From assembly GCA_030612765.1 (NCBI GenBank), contig JAUWNG010000004.1, forward strand, positions 1-64,000: DNA of 64,000 nucleotides, written 5' to 3'. The DNA comes from Planctomycetota bacterium (GTDB taxonomy: Bacteria; Planctomycetota; Planctomycetia; Pirellulales; Thermoguttaceae). A program made the translations under genes and the position numbers. Below are positions 26,958 through 58,881 of this stretch, one piece after another. Within the stretch, counting starts at the first letter, position 1. Each line of letters begins with the position of its first letter. A model generated the notes under the pieces. The model was given only the letters and a program-made list of their open reading frames with translations, was not told where the DNA came from and made no database searches.

Positions 26958-27085
<128 letters not shown>

Positions 27086-28084: not shown

Positions 28085-28200
28085 TGGGACGGGTTAATCC
28101 GGCTTCGGGTGCCACTGCTGGCTTGTCCAGCAGTGCCGTGTGGGACGGGTTAATCCGGCTTCGGGTGCCACTGCTGGCTTGTCCAGCAGTGCCGTGTGGG
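28085..28200. repeat. 56-bp tandem repeat containing the REP hairpin and the RAYT gene 3' end sequence
   Basis: tgggacgggttaatccggcttcgggtgccactgctggcttgtccagcagtgccgtg repeated twice, third partial copy running into the RAYT 3' end. Confidence 0.9.
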
Positions 28201-28205
28201 ACGGG

Positions 28206-28811
28206 TTAATCCGGCTCGTTGAGCCATTCGGCTGGCAGGCTATGGACGGTCGGCAAACCGATGTATTGTTGCGGAGGATCGACCAGATAGTATCGAACAC
28301 TCGACCACTTCCAATCGACGGCTCTCTTGACAAGTCCCCGACGAACAGGATTATGGTGTAAGTAGTCGATGGCGGTCAGCACGGTCGAGGGCTTGATGAA
28401 GTTCCGGTCGTAACCGGGGCCTTCCTGCCAATAGCGAAATGTCGTGACACCCGGACGTTGACGAATCGTCAGCCGTTGAAGTAGCCGATCCTCTGATTGA
28501 ATGAGCAGTTGCTTGATTCGATAGGAAAACGGCCGTTTGATGGCTTTCAACAGAGCGTCAATGGTGCCTGCTTCGGCAAGGGGATAGACAATCAGATGGA
28601 CGTGCTCGGGCATGAACACAAAGGCGGCGAGTCGATAACGATGGCCTTCCATCGCCCGATCCACGCTTTCGGCCAGCATCTCCCGCCACGGATCGTTGGT
28701 CAGCAAAGGCCAACGCTGATAGCACGAAAACGTCAACTCGTGGACATGGCCGGGATCGTGGTAGTGCCGGATTCGTTTCCGATGTCCCGTAGTCTGTTTC
28801 ATGTCCGCCAT
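28206..28811 (-). mobile_element. REP-associated tyrosine transposase (RAYT, Y1_Tnp/IS200-like HUH family)
   Basis: MKQTTGHRKRIRHYHDPGHVHELTFSCYQRWPLL...FVFMPEHVHLIVYP (HUH), ...VLTAIDYLHHNPVRRGLVKRAVDWKWSSVRYY; flanked by REP hairpins on both sides. Confidence 0.92.
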
Positions 28812-28826
28812 TTTACCCACAACGGT

Positions 28827-28854
28827 CACTGCTGGACAAGCCAGCAGTGGCACC
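28827..28854 (-). repeat. REP hairpin immediately upstream of RAYT start
   Basis: CACTGCTGGACAAGCCAGCAGTGGCACC, inverted relative to the copies at the gene's 3' end. Confidence 0.92.
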
Positions 28855-28899
28855 CGACGAATAAGTGAGCAACAGTCACGTGGAACGGAGGAAGAAAAA

Positions 28900-29304
28900 A
28901 TGTCTTTCGTGCCTTCCTTGAGGTTTATTCTCTGCATCGCTGGTGCGCTTGCTGTGCTGTTAGGTATTGTCGTCACAGCCATCATCGTAACCATGTGGCC
29001 TTGGCTTGGGTCGCCCCCCACGTATCGTTTTCCCGTACCGCCGGGAACTACCCTGACCGAGCAAATCGCCATCGAGTTTTCGAGGAAGGCGTTAATAACC
29101 GACGGAAAGGGGTCACCAGGGATATGGCCTACTCCGTACCGCTCTCAAGGCCCAGGCGAGGACAGCAGGAACCTCTATTTTGCGGTCAATACGATTGACC
29201 CTAACGATGGTTACGTGCTTTGGACGACACGCGATGGTAGTTACAGCGTTAGGGTTAATAAGGTGGGGGATGAGATCGTGTGCCGGGTATCCCGCATGAA
29301 ATAG
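28900..29304 (+). CDS. Hypothetical small membrane-anchored protein
   Basis: MSFVPSLRFILCIAGALAVLLGIVVTAIIVTMWP TM segment; no recognised family. Confidence 0.55.
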   Translation: MSFVPSLRFILCIAGALAVLLGIVVTAIIVTMWPWLGSPPTYRFPVPPGTTLTEQIAIEFSRKALITDGKGSPGIWPTPYRSQGPGEDSRNLYFAVNTIDPNDGYVLWTTRDGSYSVRVNKVGDEIVCRVSRMK

Positions 29305-29333
29305 GGGAGTTTTGGGGTCACCCATAACCGCCG

Positions 29334-29620
<287 letters not shown>

Positions 29621-32548: not shown

Positions 32549-32608
32549 CCACTACCCCCTATCCACTACCCACTATCCACTACTCACTACCCACTATCCA
32601 CTACTCCA
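32549..32608. repeat. 7-bp tandem repeat array (CCACTAY) at the 3' end of rlmN
   Basis: ccactaccccctatccactacccactatccactactcactacccactatccactactcc. Confidence 0.85.
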
Positions 32609-33846
32609 CGCCGCAACTGCCCACAAGCGGCGCCGATCCGGTCGCCCTTGCGATGGCGGATGGCGACGTTCAAACCGCCTTGGGTCAAAACATCGACGAA
32701 CCGGGCGGTTGCGGCCGACGATGGTTTGCGATAGGGCAGGCCCGGCACCGGATTGTAGGGGATCAGGTTCACCAAAGCCGGCCGGCCGCGAAGCAGCGCC
32801 GCAAGCCGCCGGGCGTGTTCCGGCCGGTCGTTCACCCCGGAGAGCAACACGTACTCGAACGTTACCCGTCGCCCGGTCAACTCGAAATACTCGTCTGCCG
32901 CGGCCAGAATAGCCGCCACGCCGAAGCCGCGATTGGCCGGTACAAGCCGGTTGCGCAGCTCGTTGTCGGCCGCGTGCAGCGAGACGGCCAGATGGTACGG
33001 CGGAAAAGGGGTCAGGTCCAATTTGTGCGCGGCACCCTCCGGGCCGTTCCGGCAAATTGGACCTGACCCCTTTTCCGCTCCACGGGCGAGACGTCGGATA
33101 CCGGCCGGAATACCGACCGTGGAGATGGTGATCCGCCGTGCGCCGATCCCCAGTCCGTCGCGTCCGGCGGCATCGGCCAGGGCCGGCATTAGCGCGTCGA
33201 GATTCAACAGCGGCTCGCCCATCCCCATCACCACGATGTGGCTGAGCCGTTCGGTTGATTCCAATTGGTTTTGCGTGCTTTCGGGAGAAGACTTGTTTAG
33301 CCCCGGCGTCCACGCCGGGTCAGAACATTCAACTCCGGTCTGTGTTTTCCCTCCCGGCGTGGACGCCGGGGCTAAACGAGGAGTATTCTTACAACGCCAC
33401 GCCGGTCCCTTTAGCAGCCGTTGGATATGCAGAATCTGTTCGACGATCTCGCCACGGGTGAGGTTTCGGACCACGCCGTCGAGGCCGGTGGCGCAGAAGA
33501 CGCAACCCATCGCGCAGCCGATCTGGGTGCTGATGCAGGCGGTGCAGTGCCCTTTGTCGTCGCGGAGCAGGACGCACTCGATCCGCTCGCCGTCGTGAAG
33601 TTGCAGAAGTAGTTTTTCGGCTCCGTCGGCGGCTTTGTGGTGCTTGACGACGGTTGTGGAAAACGTCTGGAACTCGGCGGCGAGTTGTTCGCGGAGTTTG
33701 GCGGGCAGGTCGGTCATCTCCTCGAACCCGGCGGCCCGTTTCTGGAACAGCCACTTTCGCACCTGACCGGCCCGATAGGCCGGCAGCCCATGCTGGACGA
33801 ACCAGTCGCGTAGCTCGGCGGGAGTTTGTTCGAGGATGGGGATCAT
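32587..33846 (-). CDS. rlmN: 23S rRNA (adenine(2503)-C(2))-methyltransferase RlmN, carrying two in-frame palindromic insertions
   Basis: CISTQIGCAMGCVFCATG radical-SAM cluster, LSHIVVMGMGEPLLN, ITISTVGIPAGIRRLA, HLAVSLHAADNELRNRLVP, NLIPYNPV. Confidence 0.95.
   Translation of the reverse strand: MIPILEQTPAELRDWFVQHGLPAYRAGQVRKWLFQKRAAGFEEMTDLPAKLREQLAAEFQTFSTTVVKHHKAADGAEKLLLQLHDGERIECVLLRDDKGHCTACISTQIGCAMGCVFCATGLDGVVRNLTRGEIVEQILHIQRLLKGPAWRCKNTPRLAPASTPGGKTQTGVECSDPAWTPGLNKSSPESTQNQLESTERLSHIVVMGMGEPLLNLDALMPALADAAGRDGLGIGARRITISTVGIPAGIRRLARGAEKGSGPICRNGPEGAAHKLDLTPFPPYHLAVSLHAADNELRNRLVPANRGFGVAAILAAADEYFELTGRRVTFEYVLLSGVNDRPEHARRLAALLRGRPALVNLIPYNPVPGLPYRKPSSAATARFVDVLTQGGLNVAIRHRKGDRIGAACGQLRRGVVDSG
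33001..33077. repeat. Inverted-repeat element CGGAAAAGGGGTCAGGTCCAATTTG...CAAATTGGACCTGACCCCTTTTCCG inside rlmN
   Basis: Perfect 25-bp arms. Confidence 0.95.
33296..33376. repeat. Double-hairpin element TTTAGCCCCGGCGTCCACGCCGGG...CCCGGCGTGGACGCCGGGGCTAAA inside rlmN (81 bp)
   Basis: Perfect 24-bp outer inverted repeat, each arm itself a hairpin. Confidence 0.95.
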
Positions 33847-39960: not shown

Positions 39961-40609
39961 GTACGAATCGAAGAAGCAGGAGTTCACCGCCTACAAGGAC
40001 ATCCTGCTCTATCAGTCCGTTGAAAAAGTCGATTCCCGAGAGTTCGGGTGCCACTGCTGGCTTGTCCAGCAGTGTTTTCCCGGGTGTTTCTCCTCACACT
40101 GCTGGACAAGCCAGCAGTGGCACCCTTTTTCAACGGACTGCTATGCCCCGCTGAACACGCCGCTGCCGGGGACGCCTGCCGCGCCGGTGGTCGGCGCGCT
40201 GCCCGCCGGGGCGCTGGCCGCCTGCGTGGCGCGGGCCCGGCAGCGGGCCGAGCGGATCAAGGCCCACCCGGCCTACACGGTCGCCATCGGCGAGGACTGC
40301 CGCATCGTGGCCCCGGTCGGGCCGCCGCCGTCCACGCAACCGACGCTCAAGGCCGTGGCCGAGACCGACTTCCAGGTGCGGCTGACGTTCGCCATGCTCC
40401 GCCACGACCAGATCGAGCTCCAGTCCAAGCGCGGCGCCGAGGCCGATTTTTCGCTTTTGGCCTACGACACCAACTCGCCGTACCTGGACGCCCGCGTCCC
40501 GCTGGTCACCGGCCAGCCGGAAGTGCGCCAGTACCGCGCCCGCTGGCGCGACGACGACTTGCCCTTCGGCGACTGGAGCGACATCGTGCAGGTGACGGCA
40601 AGGCCGTGA
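39914..40609 (+). pseudogene. Hypothetical protein, likely 5'-truncated, with REP element inserted in frame
   Basis: ...SLYESKKQEFTAYKDILLY-[44 aa encoded by repeat]-APLNTPLPGTPAAP...; GTG start overlaps the oxidoreductase remnant. Confidence 0.5.
40013..40140. repeat. 128-bp two-hairpin (REPIN/MITE-like) element, copy 2 (opposite orientation)
   Basis: Perfect 16-bp TIR CAGTCCGTTGAAAAAG/CTTTTTCAACGGACTG; CTAT on both flanks (40009-40012 and 40141-40144); hairpins 40047-40074 and 40097-40124. Confidence 0.92.
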
Positions 40610-41854: not shown

Positions 41855-41914
41855 TGTACGGGTTCCTCTTCTCTGTTCAGCCCCGAAGAGAAAAGAGAAG
41901 AGGAACCCGTACTC
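41855..41914. repeat. Inverted repeat GTACGGGTTCCTCTTCTCT...AGAGAAGAGGAACCCGTAC
   Basis: Perfect 19-bp arms. Confidence 0.9.
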
Positions 41915-58821: not shown

Positions 58822-58881
58822 GTAGGACAGGTTGGCAACCTGTCGTTGAAGCGTATGGGACAGGTTGACAACCTGTCCTAC
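58822..58881. repeat. Double-hairpin element between convergent genes (GTAGGACAGGTTG...CAACCTGTCCTAC)
   Basis: Arms GACAGGTT-GGC-AACCTGTC and GACAGGTT-GAC-AACCTGTC, outer inverted repeat. Confidence 0.92.

Follow-up and report, generated by a model that had tools for sequence, protein, structure and literature searches.

Peptides encoded by palindromic DNA within proteins are regarded as a curiosity of Rickettsia, with scattered REP cases elsewhere. The Rickettsia palindromic elements are dispersed, are inserted in frame in unrelated housekeeping proteins and comprise several families per genome (PMC10969869), and to our knowledge no mobiliser has been established for them. In-frame REPs of the GTAG/CGTC type have been reported in Opitutus terrae, Thauera and R. 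conorii, for example in uvrA/uvrD, where they encode 20-30 aa (PMC3733652). A second relevant system is that of the TIR repeats. Y1 transposases flanked by GGGGWSAS inverted repeats are designated TIRYT or TIRtrons (Di Nocera et al. 2013, PMC3733652), and most TIRYT transposases belong to TnpA subclass 2.1 (PMC6006769). The relevant sections of the TIRtron papers (PMC3733652, PMC6006769) make no mention of TIR repeats inside coding sequences, and the literature searched contained no biochemical demonstration of TIR-type Y1 transposition. Finally, MITEs (ERIC, Correia, NEMIS, Nezha) are non-autonomous, have ends in common with an autonomous element and are occasionally fused to an ORF.

The locus described here lies in a window of 64,000 nucleotides, the whole stretch of DNA that was analysed. 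The rlmN product was recognised by the profile TIGR00048 with 350 bits (cut-off 290), and the match was split into three stretches with gaps exactly at two segments, elements a and b (Table 1). The claim of a preliminary description, that two palindromes lie in frame in an otherwise complete RlmN, was thus upheld by both the profile match and the inverted repeats, with small corrections. Element b, given there as a perfect 25-bp repeat at 33001-33077, has arms of 26 nt (33000-33025 and 33053-33078) that are 100% complementary and enclose a 27-nt loop made of three mini-hairpins. Element a, placed there at 33296-33376, has arms of 28 nt (33292-33319 and 33353-33380) that are 96% complementary, with a perfect core at 33295-33377; its label 'double hairpin' is apt, since each arm contains its own internal hairpin CCGGCGT-CC-ACGCCGG. 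Extra loops of about 27-45 aa (a) and about 26 aa (b) had been proposed, while the palindromes encode 28 aa each. In RlmN, b puts 28 aa in place of 4 aa, and the whole site-a linker has about 53 aa versus 3 aa in the relative G002. Peptides predicted from the inserts include GSGPICR, LDLTPFPPYHLAVSLHAADNELR and LAPASTPGGK.

Table 1. Features of the rlmN locus and its surroundings (positions in the window).
Feature	Position	Strand	Remark
rlmN, both palindromes in frame	32587-33846	-	419 aa; TIGR00048
Element b, 79-nt palindrome with perfect arms	33000-33078	-	predicted translation EKGSGPICRNGPEGAAHKLDLTPF
Element a, double-hairpin palindrome TTTAGCCCCGGCG..CGCCGGGGCTAAA	33292-33380	-	predicted translation RLAPASTPGGKTQTGVECSDPAWTPGLN
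Site-a linker, HIQRLL to ERLSHIV, hypervariable length	33253-33411	-	sibling comparison
Site-a palindromes			TTTAGCCCC this genome; GATAAAGGGGTCGGGAGTCTTTG sibling G004; CACTGCTGGCTTGTCCAGCAGTG sibling G041
Family c palindrome, context copy outside rlmN	26973-27052	.	inverted-repeat scan
Family c palindrome, context copy outside rlmN	40046-40125	.	inverted-repeat scan
Y1 transposase ORF, amid family c half-units	28206-29072	-	PF01797

The two palindromes of rlmN are unrelated to each other. The window contains seven palindromes of such size, two of them inside rlmN, and locally shuffled windows contain 0-2, so that a chance origin can be excluded. Both elements belong to dispersed repeats: as BLAST queries, b returned 76 matches, with both arms and both strands included, that correspond to about 40 sites, and a returned 85, of which many are single half-units. 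Some 4 kb away from rlmN, the Y1 ORF is surrounded by many half-units of family c (28113-29607), a REPtron-like arrangement. Two more long palindromes of other families are found in the window at 41856-41912 (GTACGGGTTCCTCTTCTC) and at 58822-58881 (GTAGGACAGGTTGGCAACCTGTC, with a GTAG foot), and positions 5850-26630 of the minus strand are occupied by a single ORF of 6926 aa with many repeats, apparently coding for a giant surface or secreted protein. Tandem copies of CACTACCCACTATCCACTAC at 32550-32604 overlap the 3' end of rlmN, and therefore the last residues of RlmN, GVVDSG, derive from yet another repeat; the C-terminus of the protein in sibling G004 differs (RSSG).

A non-functional gene with an intact rlmN elsewhere would have refuted the preliminary description, as would homologous segments without palindromic DNA in RlmN of distant relatives. 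Neither was found. The assembly (88% complete, 228 contigs) holds only one rlmN; a second intact gene as a backup was not found in it. The dN/dS of rlmN between this genome and sibling G004, with the insert regions excluded, was 0.21. Alignment to the solved RlmN structure 6fz6 locates the inserts between its chain residues 161 and 165 and between 224 and 229. In an AlphaFold model built from 3 input sequences (pLDDT 48), from which nothing but the succession of helices and strands was taken, they follow helices 131-146 and 247-258 and precede strands 201-207 and 284-289. In radical-SAM barrels the helix-to-strand loops face away from the active site. From this topology, and with the low confidence of the model in mind, we infer that both inserts would occupy helix-to-strand loops on the barrel face opposite the active site.

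Comparison bore out the proposal that RlmN of related planctomycetes lacks the segments, apart from b in sibling G004. At site b the element is missing from about 20 RlmN genes of the same bacterial family, each of which is shorter by exactly 72 nt; here the 79-nt palindrome has taken the place of 7 nt of ancestral sequence (net +72 nt). Sibling G004, which matching coordinates identify as MAG CSMAG_2480, has the same b copy, and its b peptide is unchanged at a dS of 0.13. At site a, G002 and G036 have linkers of 3 aa and 14 aa, both free of palindromes, while the three members of the genus have a long linker with three unrelated palindromes; element a is missing from both siblings, which have other palindrome families there, that of G041 being family c. 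These results indicate that the b copy of rlmN was inherited jointly with G004, that the a copy was acquired separately, and that site a is a hot spot for palindromes.

The copies of b share AAAAGGGG(A/T)CAG, followed by a variable complementary six-base middle and TTTG, around a 27-nt loop of the form CCGGAACGG-CCCnnnGGG-TGCTTCGCA. Positions of the middle stem covary, nearly always to another Watson-Crick pair, and the arms pair perfectly in the Watson-Crick manner, G-T pairs being almost absent. The element starts with (A)AAAGGGG and does not meet the test for a GTAG/CGTC foot, while family d starts with GTAG. Length variants mostly have +12, +18, +21 or +39 nt, mostly multiples of 3. In some copies (L005, L060, L069 and L012, compared with L156) the loop is enlarged by an extra hairpin, GGGCACCGACGCGCAGCGTTGGTCGTC, again mostly by a multiple of 3. 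The exact b pattern was found at 34 sites of this genome, and in 12 of 120 genomes of the bacterial family (10 of 40 genera), and it was absent from all 394 further genomes drawn from across the phylum; the named records that contain b are MAGs of Pirellulales and of other Planctomycetota, among them Candidatus Anammoximicrobium. When the palindromes were compared with known RNA families, nothing reached threshold, and hairpin-like chance matches were far below it.

The dispersal of b, which the copies themselves establish, takes place largely within genes. By a codon-score test, 26 of the 37 b copies of this genome that could be scored are inside coding sequence and in frame with it, in contrast to 5 of 51 for the a, c and d families together (Fisher p 4e-9). 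Since 60% of random segments drawn from the surveyed stretches count as coding, b does not avoid genes and a, c and d do. The survey covered stretches around repeat matches, not the whole genome, and is biased thereby. Family b is thus mainly intragenic and a, c and d mostly intergenic, which makes element a in rlmN an exception within a mainly intergenic, REP-like family. The hosts of b identified with Pfam are a UvrD/Rep helicase with three copies, PurL, PheT and HemD with two each, and PdxA, LpxK, BirA, BioD, a Mur ligase, a PurF-like protein, an exosortase, a histidine kinase, a DEAD helicase, a glycosyltransferase, a sigma factor and RlmN; in the housekeeping genes, Pfam domains span the elements. 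The three copies of the UvrD/Rep helicase gene (L094:2578-4773, G000 C42) lie in one reading frame; compared with G004, the first is absent there and the third has the opposite loop orientation.

Several observations show that the insertions respect the reading frame. In this genome and others, 60 b copies keep the frame and 14 of 74 with coding sequence on both sides look shifted, although the test misjudges some of the 14 apparently shifted or non-coding copies. No in-frame copy contains a stop codon. The b consensus is open in 6/6 frames, a property shared by 2.7% of shuffled palindromes, and its reading phases KGTGPIC, KGDRSNL and RGQVQF are used 31, 24 and 5 times (p 6e-6), the last being nearly absent. 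In ortholog comparisons with two siblings, 30 of 30 at 20 sites differed by a multiple of 3, many of them with a clean empty site in the sibling, and the cases compared separately, among them rlmN site b, agree; not all of these counts are independent. Six b hosts gave dN/dS values of 0.08-0.43, and the host genes tested are therefore under purifying selection. We infer that the b inserts are translated as extra protein loops and that these are harmless to the host protein; the data come from MAGs only, without transcripts or peptides.

Turnover of b is visible between siblings. It is present in one and absent in the other at BirA, BioD, the histidine kinase, LpxK and other genes; the orientation of the loop is flipped at PheT (twice), UvrD and PurL; and in G004 it is replaced by a GTCGGGAGTC element at PurL site 2 and in the C170 gene. 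The pdxA gene of G041 (L358, C230) carries a mutated b whose arms no longer match and which is still in frame, a fossil copy. Complementarity of the flanks extends past the b core by 2.87 nt, compared with 1.34 nt for shuffled pairs; one UvrD site shows it in a single species only. This extended complementarity and the upkeep of the arms might reflect correction by template switching, which remains an unproven inference.

Nine Y1 transposase matches were found in this genome, and the correspondence between palindrome arms and the TIRs of such genes is plain. The TIRs of the TIRYT gene at C16:17328-17990 (GAATAAACGGGACAGGTCTAATT) are identical to a b arm of the same genome at 21 of 23 positions, the site-a palindrome of G004 rlmN is identical at 23 of 23 to the TIRs of the C252 TIRYT gene, and three further subfamilies have arms that match those of other TIRYT genes in their TIRs. 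Of the G004 site-a family, four full copies were scored, and all of them continue the frame of a coding sequence. With GGGG(A/T)CAG, b copies also meet the GGGGWSAS criterion for TIR repeats. At least four separate pairings of a Y1 gene with a palindrome are present in this 4-Mb genome (L143, L141, L137, L138); they involve families c and d, a TTTTGGGGTCAGAGCGC TIR and a b-like TIR. No Y1 gene flanked by exactly the main b ends, and thus no such autonomous element, was found; one candidate (L178, arms 1042 bp apart) was rejected because it consists of two b copies in one ORF. Among 98 copies, direct flank repeats were not in excess over shuffled pairs, and apparent target-site duplications of 5-7 nt at BirA and the L093 gene did not rise above shuffled flanks. 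HUH enzymes of the IS200/IS605 kind are expected to leave no target-site duplication. From the match between arms and TIRs, in the absence of biochemical data, we infer that b is probably mobilised by Y1/TIRYT transposases.

The explanation we consider likely is that TIRYT-mobilised palindromes spread via coding DNA and persist as tolerated, translated loops; translation, mobilisation, harmlessness and template switching are its inferred parts. Element b would be a non-autonomous palindrome made of two TIRYT-type terminal inverted repeats, each with an outer AAAAGGGGWCAG and a subfamily-specific hexamer, around the conserved loop of three mini-hairpins. Y1/HUH transposases of the TIRYT class would probably act on it in trans, and its occurrence in coding DNA is roughly proportional to the coding share. 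The survivors would be insertions with a net gain of a multiple of 3, without stops and in a permissive loop, each adding by translation about 24-28 aa to a working protein. In rlmN, one b copy would be an inheritance in common with G004, and a second loop would separately have received a member of the REP-like family a.

Four other explanations were weighed. The inserts might be spliced from the RNA or bypassed by the ribosome, as with mitochondrial byp elements, giving a protein without them. The strong mRNA hairpins and the intact catalytic motifs on either side would suit this, but removal requires neither multiples of 3 nor open frames, and therefore the 30 of 30 net lengths, the lack of stops and the avoidance of one phase make it very unlikely, as does the lack of any known ribozyme or RNA family at threshold. 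Equally improbable is that the palindromes are ordinary gene-breaking insertions, left open by chance in host genes that are in decay, rlmN included. An element that is stop-free in all frames need not bring stops, and some copies look frame-shifted; against this stand the dN/dS values of 0.08-0.43, the single rlmN, the different in-frame inserts in three siblings, and the presence among the hosts of PheT and PurL, which are normally essential.

It is also conceivable, though unlikely, that the peptides have been co-opted, for instance as loops for regulation or interaction, and that protein-level selection maintains them instead of merely tolerating them. The identity of the RlmN b peptide in two siblings, the phase bias and the frame retained by the decayed PdxA copy of G041 speak for it, whereas in siblings the same sites are empty, flipped or filled with unrelated palindromes, and the hosts are functionally unrelated. 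A main role of recombination and template switching in spreading and reshaping b, without a transposase, is possible but less likely than the preferred reading. It is supported by the flank complementarity (2.87 versus 1.34 nt), the loop flips, the perfect Watson-Crick arms with almost no G-T pairs, and the frequent replacement of a few target bases at insertion. However, a copying-insertion step is needed to account for new, unrelated sites that are occupied in one species only and cleanly empty in its siblings, and the arms match TIRs subfamily by subfamily. Beyond the preferred reading of TIRYT-mobilised, tolerated loops, a bolder one would see b as specialised for intragenic life: moved by TIRYT enzymes, selected to be stop-free in six frames and to change length by multiples of 3, with loop flips giving alternative peptides, and subject to steady insertion, flipping, replacement and loss wherever core enzymes of the family offer permissive loops. 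On balance we lean slightly against going that far.

The likeness to the Rickettsia palindromic elements, already suggested in the preliminary description, was supported and involves many housekeeping genes instead of rlmN alone. Two criteria for such an element, a palindrome in many copies and in-frame insertion in unrelated functional genes, are fulfilled by b, and by analogy b may work in the same way, with sequence homology untested and the presence of the peptides inferred. We do not class b among them because homology is untested and both length (about 70-90 nt versus about 150 nt) and phylum differ, b being a mostly intragenic element of planctomycetes. Moreover, b arms match transposase TIRs, whereas the CGTC repeats, including RPE-4/6, had no linked transposase in the 2013 survey. 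The REPs of Opitutus terrae, Thauera and R. conorii are mostly intergenic, unlike b, which is mostly in genes and has no GTAG/CGTC foot; families a and d are nearer to ordinary REPs. With TIR repeats (Di Nocera et al. 2013; PMC6006769), b has in common the GGGGWSAS ends, the Y1 genes flanked by TIRs and the TIR-derived repeats in the same genome, but it lies mainly in coding sequence and its three-mini-hairpin loop is common to subfamilies with different hexamers. From MITEs of the DDE type it is set apart by the unmet criterion of target-site duplication and by the related transposases, which are HUH/Y1. As had been supposed, no earlier description for planctomycetes was found in the literature searched. 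The phenomenon is only partly new, since a paper of 2013 had already described REPs in frame in genes outside Rickettsia (PMC3733652); the novelty of b lies in its being mainly intragenic, tied to a transposase class and recurrent in hot loops.

The phenomenon extends well beyond rlmN. Annotators of these MAGs should be aware that conserved proteins may contain peptides of about 25 aa derived from mobile DNA, and the b sites in RlmN, PurL, PheT, UvrD and BirA are natural maps of permissive loops. Because dozens of core enzymes are involved, with precise and empty sites and a candidate transposase class, the origin and the tolerance of protein-invading DNA become directly testable.
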